64,000 bases of DNA from Thiogranum longum (GTDB taxonomy: Bacteria; Pseudomonadota; Gammaproteobacteria; DSM-19610). The first letter of the stretch is position 1, and each line of letters starts with the position of its first letter. Below, in pieces: positions 48,198-51,466 of the stretch. Location of the stretch: assembly GCF_004339085.1 (NCBI RefSeq), contig NZ_SMFX01000001.1:2177413-2241412 (forward strand), read 5' to 3'. A program made the translations under genes and the position numbers. The notes below the pieces were generated by a model that was not told where the DNA came from, did not search any database, and was given only the letters and a program-made list of their open reading frames with translations.

Positions 48198-48440
48198 TTA
48201 CTGCTGCTGATCCTTGAGCAGTTTGGCGACGCGATCCGAGGTCCGGGCACCCAGACTGACCCAGTGCTGTACACGTTCGGCATCGATCTTCAAACGTGTC
48301 TCGCCACCCGTGGCGACCGGATTGAAATAACCGACACGCTCAAGGTAGCGTCCGTCACGACGATTGCGGGAATCGGTGACCACCACATGGTAGAAGGGTC
48401 GTTTTTTCGCACCACCGCGCGACAGTCGAATTGTTACCAT
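48198..48440 (-). CDS. rpsP: 30S ribosomal protein S16
   Basis: The ATG at 48440 opens the typical [19 protein letters not shown] sequence and is preceded by GAGG. The 80-residue product includes [14 protein letters not shown] and [19 protein letters not shown]. It is first in the rpsP-rimM-trmD-rplS operon. The longer frame from 48575 runs into the promoter and is rejected. Confidence 0.97.
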
Positions 48441-48539: not shown

Positions 48540-48843
48540 GGGCTTGCAGAGAAATAATACGTCAAGCCCATCCACTCCAGGTACTTTGCCTGCCTAAAAT
48601 GGGGCGGACAAGCAAGAATCGGAAGATTTTCCACAAAATGTCGATCTTCTTTACTACCGAATTGCGTCGAAAATATACCAACAAATATACTGCAATCATA
48701 TTGTTTACAATAAGTTAATAACATCCTTCAGACTATGGGATAACCCTCCAATTGTCGATATTATTTACATAGAATTATGTCGGACATTTGAGCCTGGAAG
48801 TCTCTTTAGTGTAACAGGTTGTTTTTATTGAATTTGACGTTTA

Positions 48844-48859
48844 TGGCATAGAGATTGCT
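48844..48859 (+). promoter_or_regulatory. Sigma-54 (RpoN) promoter
   Basis: TGGCATAGAGATTGCT has GG (48845-48846) and GC (48857-48858) exactly 10 nt apart and matches the TGGCAC-N5-TTGC consensus well. Transcription would run on the plus strand from about 48870. The 200-nt AT-rich stretch upstream could carry activator sites. A TGTCGGACA palindrome lies at 48778-48786. Confidence 0.75.
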
Positions 48860-48869
48860 CAGTTTGTCA

Positions 48870-49066
48870 GTTGAGGGAACGATGTCAGTAACAATTAGGG
48901 AATAATGTTGGTAGAAGGGGCGATTGAACGCCAGCAGTCTTAAAGAACGGCCCGCGGCAATCGATAAGTCCTTCCGTCAGAAATAATAGAGAATCAGCAC
49001 TGACGGCAGGGGGGAAAGATTATAAAAGTCCTACTGCTACGGCGAGCCACTGGCTCGCCGTTTTTT
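48870..49066 (+). ncRNA. Candidate sigma-54-driven small RNA (about 197 nt)
   Basis: The unit is defined by the sigma-54 promoter upstream and a strong terminator at its end, with no long reading frame. Internal structure includes a perfect 7-bp stem CCGTCAG/CTGACGG (48974-48980 with 49000-49006). Two minimal reading frames start right after the predicted 5' end. The first, 48882-48905 with SD GAGGGA, encodes MSVTIRE. The second, 48905-48943, overlaps it by TAATG. It may be a small RNA, a dual-function RNA or a leader. I recognise no Rfam family, and it is antisense to nothing annotated. Confidence 0.6.
49037..49066 (+). terminator. Rho-independent terminator on the plus strand
   Basis: A perfect 9-bp stem (49040-49048 with 49052-49060, GGCGAGCC core) and an ACT loop are followed by six T residues (49061-49066). 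The T-run is on the plus strand, so it ends the transcript from the sigma-54 promoter rather than ffh, which is on the minus strand. Confidence 0.9.
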
Positions 49067-49069
49067 ATT

Positions 49070-50431
49070 TCAGGGGAAAGGAAATCCCTGCGGCATTTTA
49101 CCCTTCAGGCCGCGCATCATGTTTTTCATCCCACCCTTGGACATCTTCTTCATCATTTTCTGCATCTGGGTAAACTGCTTAAGTAGCCGATTAACATCCT
49201 GCACCCGGGTTCCTGAGCCAGCCGCAATACGCCGACGCCGCGAACCCTTGATGATATCCGGAAAGGCCCGTTCTTTCAGGGTCATGGAGCGAATAATGGC
49301 GAGCATGCGGTCCATATCCTTGTCGTTGACCTGTTCACGCACATTCTTTGGCAACTGACTCATGCCGGGCAGCTTGTCCATCAGGCCACCGAGACCGCCC
49401 ATACCCGCCATCTGCTCCAGCTGGTCATGAAAGTCTGTCAGATCGAAGCGTTTGCCCTTGTGCAGCTTTTTCGCAAGCCTTGTGGCCTTGTCCTTGTCGA
49501 CCTTGCGCTCGACCTCTTCGACCAGGCTGAGCACATCTCCCATCCCCAGAATACGCGATGCCAGACGATCCGGGTGGAACGGCTCCAGTGCTTCGGTCTT
49601 TTCACCAACACCGAGAAACTTGATCGGCTTGCCGGTAATGGCGCGGATAGACAGCGCCGCACCACCCCGTGCATCACCATCTGTCTTGGTCAGAATGACG
49701 CCACTCAGGGGCAAGGCATCATGGAAGGCACGCGCCGTGTTTGCGGCATCCTGACCGGTCATGCTGTCGACCACAAACAGGGTTTCGACCGGCTGAACCG
49801 CAGCATGGATGCGCTGGATCTCATCCATCATTTGCTCATCGATATGAAGCCGGCCGGCGGTATCGATAATCAATACATCAACATGCTGCTTGCGTGCCTG
49901 CTCGAGCGCCGCTTGCGCAATCGCCACCGGGTCCTGCTCGGAACTGCTGGGGAAGAAAGCGGCACCCACCTCACCGGCCAGCGTTTTCAACTGCTCGATG
50001 GCGGCCGGACGATAAATATCGCAACTCGCCACCATAACTGACTTGTTCTTGCGCTCTTTCAACCAGCGCGCAAGCTTGGCTGTGGATGTGGTTTTACCGG
50101 AACCCTGCAGGCCCGCCATCAACACCACGGCGGGAGGCTGCACATTGAGCTGCAGTTCGTCGCAGGCCTCGCCCATCAGTGCGACCAGCTCGTCGTTGAC
50201 GATCTTGACCAGCGCCTGACCCGGCGTCAGGCTTTGCATGACCTCCTGTCCGACGGCACGCTCGCGCACCTTGTCGATGAACTCCTTGACGACCGGCAAC
50301 GCCACGTCGGCCTCAAGCAGGGCCATGCGCACTTCGCGCAGGGCCTCCTTGATATTGTCTTCACTGAGGCGCCCCTGCCCGCGCAGGCGCTTGATCGTGC
50401 CGGACAGGCGATCTGTCAGATTCTCGAACAT
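49070..50431 (-). CDS. ffh: Signal recognition particle GTPase Ffh
   Basis: The 453-residue product targets membrane proteins co-translationally with 4.5S RNA. The NG domain shows LMAGLQGSGKTTSTAKLA, IIDTAGRLHIDEQMM, ILTKTDGDARGGAALS and GVGEKTEALEPF. The Met-rich M domain follows (SRRRRIAAGSGTRVQDVNRL and MQKMMKKMSKGGMKNMMRGL). Its neighbours rpsP and ypjD are conserved around ffh in gammaproteobacteria. Confidence 0.97.
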   Translation of the reverse strand: MFENLTDRLSGTIKRLRGQGRLSEDNIKEALREVRMALLEADVALPVVKEFIDKVRERAVGQEVMQSLTPGQALVKIVNDELVALMGEACDELQLNVQPPAVVLMAGLQGSGKTTSTAKLARWLKERKNKSVMVASCDIYRPAAIEQLKTLAGEVGAAFFPSSSEQDPVAIAQAALEQARKQHVDVLIIDTAGRLHIDEQMMDEIQRIHAAVQPVETLFVVDSMTGQDAANTARAFHDALPLSGVILTKTDGDARGGAALSIRAITGKPIKFLGVGEKTEALEPFHPDRLASRILGMGDVLSLVEEVERKVDKDKATRLAKKLHKGKRFDLTDFHDQLEQMAGMGGLGGLMDKLPGMSQLPKNVREQVNDKDMDRMLAIIRSMTLKERAFPDIIKGSRRRRIAAGSGTRVQDVNRLLKQFTQMQKMMKKMSKGGMKNMMRGLKGKMPQGFPFP

Positions 50432-51226: not shown

Positions 51227-51466
51227 TGTCTTGATTCCGGTTATCACCTGATACCGGTAATGCGAGTACCGTGCCACGGCAATTCACAAGGAAAATGTGA
51301 ACCGGCTCACAGTTTCAGGCCTTTTTCGGCCTCATATACGTGACCCATGCAACATAGAAAACACAACTGACGCTGTACGTCAGCCACTGGTGACACTGGC
51401 GGGCGATTTCCACACGGCAACACGGCAAGGCTTTAAGCACCCGGTAGCTTGTGCCATCATTGCCAA

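Follow-up and report, generated by a model that had tools for sequence, protein, structure and literature searches.

Does the 629-bp intergenic region between ffh and rpsP of Thiogranum longum contain a small RNA gene of its own and, if so, what would switch it on and what would its product do? Both flanking genes lie on the minus strand (ffh at 49070-50431, for which orthologues were collected, and rpsP at 48198-48440; positions are those of the window, the whole 64-kb stretch of DNA analysed). The candidate unit runs on the plus strand, opposite both genes, and its 3′ end falls just before the ffh stop codon. An earlier note had described it as opposite ffh; this holds for the strand, with respect to rpsP as well, but not as an overlap, the unit lying within the intergenic gap.

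The predicted unit begins with a sigma-54 -24/-12 promoter, TGGCATAGAGATTGCT (48844-48859, +), exactly spaced and in agreement with the consensus at 10 of 12 positions. Shuffling leads one to expect 0.13 occurrences of the exact pattern TGGCAYRNNNNTTGCW where the window has one, a ratio that is only suggestive by itself; it is the conservation of the element that settles its reading as a promoter. We gathered the intergenic regions downstream of ffh from relatives, and in nearly every genome of the order with a readable gap a -24/-12 element with 10–12 of 12 matches stands 184–277 nt before the ffh stop codon (at one locus, L013, the -24 half falls in an assembly gap). The promoter is kept at this ffh–rpsP location in 16 of the 20 genomes of the order and in two MAGs outside it (L034 and L035: 12 of 12 matches, 300–338 nt before the stop codon), and it is absent at the roughly 70 other gammaproteobacterial loci compared. 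The near-consensus element pointed out in the earlier note is thus found at the same place in relatives.

From the position of the promoter, with the start placed 12 nt after the C of the -12 element, and from that of the terminator, we predict a plus-strand transcript of about 197 nt (48870-49066), designated sRNA-A, with no long reading frame; length and lack of a frame agree with the earlier description. It would fold into hairpin P1 (48921-48963), with 14 pairs, 10 of them changed on both sides among relatives, and hairpin P2 (48970-49011), whose upper part is the 7-bp stem CCGTCAG/CTGACGG already recognized in the window. The A-rich loop of P2 reads AAATAAT here and AAYAAYAA in many relatives, and resembles Hfq distal-face motifs. 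A G-run (GGGGGG, 49009-49014) is present in most orthologues, and the transcript ends in an intrinsic terminator (49039-49066) with a 3-nt loop; the terminator and its six T residues stand as first proposed, with a stem of 10 bp rather than 9 bp.

Folded as a single sequence, the RNA from the window does not stand out (z = -1.54); the structural case is comparative. An alignment of 13 orthologues, from P1 onward, supports three helices in which 91% of cells pair. Of their 35 pairs, 19 show compensatory changes, and the covariation score lies above that of every shuffle. The aligned pairs include 45 G-U cells versus 6 A-C cells, which together with the compensatory changes indicates that it is the plus-strand RNA that has been conserved. 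Covariance model R1 has a single strong match, at the ffh–rpsP locus, in each of 14 of the 20 genomes of the order, the match in the window extending from 48919 to the terminator; 13 of these 14 genomes formed the training set, and the one held out (G011) was matched at E = 3e-16. The covariance search in relatives that had been suggested for this interval thus recovers a covarying structure. As to paralogues within the genome, R1 gave weak matches only, and no Rfam family, including the Qrr, GlmY and GlmZ covariance models, matched sRNA-A at a meaningful score. With a conserved promoter and terminator, a covarying plus-strand fold and a single copy per genome, the stand-alone sigma-54-driven small RNA first proposed for this gap gains comparative support, and we have very little doubt that sRNA-A is a real, conserved and structured noncoding RNA, its transcription being predicted from these signals.

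Upstream of the promoter lie two 17-nt enhancer-like sites of the form TGTCGNNNNNNTTTACW, starting 114 bp apart: a distal one, TGTCGATCTTCTTTACT (48639-48655, +), and a proximal one, TGTCGATATTATTTACA (48753-48769, +), separated from the -24 element by a 74-nt spacer. In 17 of the 17 promoters compared, the two sites occupy nearly fixed positions at about -231 and -117, their commonest form being TGWCG-N6-TTTACA. As described in the text of Haft et al. (2006; PMC1569441), motif 1 is 17 nt long, ends in TTTACA, is sometimes repeated and stands 32–92 nt upstream of a sigma-54 motif; it precedes PEP-CTERM genes and was assigned to PrsR by phylogenetic profile. The window sites agree with this in their length, their TTTACA end and a spacer within the 32–92 nt range, the motif being compared with the wording of that paper (length and TTTACA end). 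The genome contains 15 copies of the exact pattern TGWCGN6TTTACA and one of the reversed control, and across the 20 genomes the combined site-plus-promoter pattern has 77 matches versus 10 in controls, many of them preceding PEP-CTERM-like genes whose products end in VPVPAALWLLGSGL...RRR. In the window's genome, the same motif stands ahead of a VPLPA-CTERM gene (L250; 26.6 bits against a cut-off of 25.35) and near an XrtA exopolysaccharide cluster (L255), most XrtA matches scoring just under the curated cut-offs. As a separate observation, an exact PrsR-type motif lies near sugar-nucleotide biosynthesis genes (L256 and L171; G000:C1, about 2824.3 kb), where no sigma-54 element is evident at the customary spacing.

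The same genome encodes prsK, prsR and prsT in a row, identified by TIGR02916 (772 bits, cut-off 300), TIGR02915 (713 bits, cut-off 503) and TIGR02917 (381 bits, cut-off 312), respectively. The enhancer-binding activator implied by the promoter can thus be given a putative name: it is highly probable, judging from the motif-1 sites and these genes, that PrsR binds upstream of sRNA-A and activates it. Published work lends support: Aquincola pepA is RpoN1-dependent (PMC9850573), and the Desulfovibrio vulgaris regulator DVUA0057, predicted to control PEP-CTERM genes, bound its five predicted targets of this kind in DAP-chip (PMC3333781). It should be noted that the codistribution of regulator and RNA is not complete. 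Neither prsK nor prsR was found in G002, G004, G014 or G017, and G002, G004 and G017 carry sRNA-A, which we count against our reading; all three are MAG-like or incomplete, yet completeness is rated at 99% for G002 and G017, and the missing prsR may reflect either missing sequence or loss. Also counted against it is the presence of PrsR without sRNA-A in G007, G015 and G016. In G018 and G019 the RNA has diverged, the promoter and both upstream sites being present. In G007, G015 and G016, which retain prsK/prsR, the ffh–rpsP gap holds a gene for a PAS-type histidine kinase (loci L173 and L174 in the latter two).

A second frameless sigma-54 unit of the same architecture, sRNA-B, is located at about 64.5 kb in the window's genome (G000:C1, about 64.3–64.8 kb, minus strand; L158 and L258), flanked by genes for an ABC1 kinase and a DUF389 protein. 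It consists of a pair of motif-1-like sites and a sigma-54 element with 11 of 12 matches, after which comes a frameless stretch of about 200 nt that ends in AACCCGCCTCAAGGCGGGTTTTTT. It occurs in this genome and eight relatives, nine in all. The terminators of sRNA-A and sRNA-B are similar, and the two RNAs share no overall sequence; sRNA-B has an invariant GGTGTTGGAGGAGA and A-rich (AAY)n stretches, and matches to GGTGTTGGAGGAGA outside the family come without the corresponding promoter and sites. That the same architecture recurs at a second locus speaks for a noncoding branch of the PrsR regulon. Candidate pairing seeds are GGUGUUGGAGGAGA of sRNA-B and the G-run of sRNA-A. Upstream of sRNA-B, a conserved AT-rich stretch with TATATAAG lies between the two enhancer sites (L158, L204, L209, L211, L212 and L231).

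We therefore favour, at a probability of about three in four for the scheme as a whole, the reading that sRNA-A is a conserved noncoding RNA gene of the PrsK/PrsR regulon. PrsK would activate PrsR, which would bind the pair of enhancer sites, spaced by about 114 bp, and activate RpoN–RNA polymerase at the -24/-12 promoter; the RNA of about 197 nt, with its two hairpins and Rho-independent terminator, would be fitted to Hfq by exposed A-rich AAY repeats and a U-tail and, with sRNA-B, would most likely act in trans, adjusting mRNA translation in cells that make exopolysaccharide and PEP-CTERM/exosortase surface proteins. Genome comparison establishes the promoter, the paired sites, the structure and its strand, the lack of a conserved reading frame, the membership in the motif-defined regulon and the presence of PrsK, PrsR, PrsT and Hfq; the activity of these parts is what the scheme predicts.

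AAYAAY occurs 45 times in sRNA-A across relatives against 5.2 expected from dinucleotide shuffles, with a mean unpaired probability of 0.78 versus 0.47 overall, and 16 times in sRNA-B against 3.0; the motifs are mostly unpaired. Their number per RNA ranges from 0 to 6, with 3 in the window copy of sRNA-A; the strict motif AANAANAA (AAnAAnAA) does not occur in that copy, which we also count against our reading. Hfq is present in 18 of the 20 genomes, and the features associated with Hfq-dependent sRNAs (hfq in the genome, a U-rich terminator tail and exposed A-rich motifs) are found together here. By analogy with the sigma-54-controlled CrcZ/CrcY, Qrr and GlmY/Z, an Hfq-associated regulator acting in trans is the likeliest role for sRNA-A, and we consider it reasonably probable. 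A CsrA sponge was rejected, GGA occurring 57 times against 66.7 expected.

CbrB, a two-component sigma-54 activator, controls the sRNAs CrcZ and CrcY in the Pseudomonadaceae (PMC6292655), and the two RNAs described here could likewise act mainly by titrating Hfq, or an Hfq complex, through their AAY repeats rather than by pairing with targets, so that repression of exopolysaccharide and surface-protein mRNAs would be relieved. This is suggested by the shared arrangement of a two-component sigma-54 activator with two sRNAs rich in mostly unpaired A-rich motifs of the Hfq type, but the repeats are fewer and looser, as the 0–6 copies per RNA and the missing strict motif illustrate, and the conserved G-rich elements suggest further roles. 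The RNAs are also shorter than CrcZ. We regard titration as the main mode of action as rather unlikely. Activator site and locus differ as well, and we do not assign sRNA-A to the CrcZ family, since the window copy has neither the defining motif nor an Rfam match.

Regulation by PrsR could also be questioned, as the genome encodes about 11 sigma-54 activator domains and the TGTC...ACA of the enhancer sites resembles the GlrR site, so that a GlrR-like, NtrC-like or other activator might own the sites. This is improbable: the motif agrees in length and form with motif 1 of Haft et al., and it precedes the VPLPA-CTERM and XrtA exopolysaccharide genes of the same genome.

Equally improbable is a purely local role as a cis-antisense RNA, in which transcription over the gap would disturb ffh–rpsP read-through or formation of the ffh 3′ end. 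The position of the unit, opposite two co-oriented genes and ending at the ffh stop codon, invites this interpretation, but the covariation and G-U bias reflect selection on the plus-strand fold, and sRNA-B repeats the arrangement at a locus unrelated to this one. It is further disfavoured because a sigma-70-like site near rpsP (48539-48512) would let rpsP start beyond the sRNA.

Hardly credible is an mRNA for a micropeptide such as MSVTIRE or the TTG-started P1 frame (NASSLKERPAA), since the resemblance of some relatives in the residues of the P1 frame is accounted for by P1 base pairing, that frame is interrupted by stops (L011, L014 and L017) and a frameshift (L018) and lacks a start codon in L011, L014, L015 and L017, and the mini-frame ATGs are not conserved. 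The mini-frames of the earlier note, MSVTIRE and the 12-residue MLVEGAIERQQS, do exist in the window, but their absence from relatives leaves translation unsupported and, with the P1 frame broken, makes noncoding the better reading of sRNA-A.

A noncoding sRNA-A under PrsR has partial counterparts in known systems. LuxO-controlled Qrr and GlrR-controlled GlmY/GlmZ are stand-alone sRNAs with response-regulator sigma-54 promoters, as sRNA-A is predicted to be, but the latter has no Rfam similarity to them and an unrelated enhancer site. Dv_sRNA2, a target of the sigma-54 regulator DVU0679 in Desulfovibrio (PMC3333781), is likewise an sRNA without assigned function under response-regulator control, but its regulator is a different one and it adjoins the gene for it. 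The PrsR PEP-CTERM regulon, as the text of PMC1569441 presents it, shares the 17-nt TTTACA site, the sometimes repeated motif 1, a spacing that accommodates the 74 nt seen here, the -24/-12 element and PrsK/PrsR/PrsT, but that text places sites upstream of genes only, whereas here a conserved pair of sites precedes a structured noncoding RNA.

In the open-access literature searched we found no sRNA linked to PrsR, and as far as that literature goes a small RNA in the PrsR regulon has not been described before. The PEP-CTERM/exosortase system occurs widely among environmental bacteria, where it is the basis of matrix formation in flocs and biofilms; to our knowledge, its regulation is known only as PrsK/PrsR with sigma-54 acting on protein genes. 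If our reading is correct, a conserved sRNA pair adds a post-transcriptional layer to it, two short single-copy transcripts become usable reporters of PrsR activity, and a new RNA family is tied to a predicted activator whose binding sites are defined and open to mutation. Tentatively, PrsK/PrsR may drive this sequence-unrelated pair as the post-transcriptional arm of the exosortase/PEP-CTERM programme, by Hfq titration or by pairing with motility and metabolism mRNAs during matrix building, analogous to CbrAB-CrcZ/CrcY for surface assembly.

A further sigma-54-like element, TGGCACGGTACTCGCA (51261-51276, minus strand), lies upstream of ffh at the 5′ end of the frame annotated as an MBL-fold gene, with near-identical copies in relatives; it may be a promoter, if translation begins at the downstream MELRIL, or merely conserved coding sequence.
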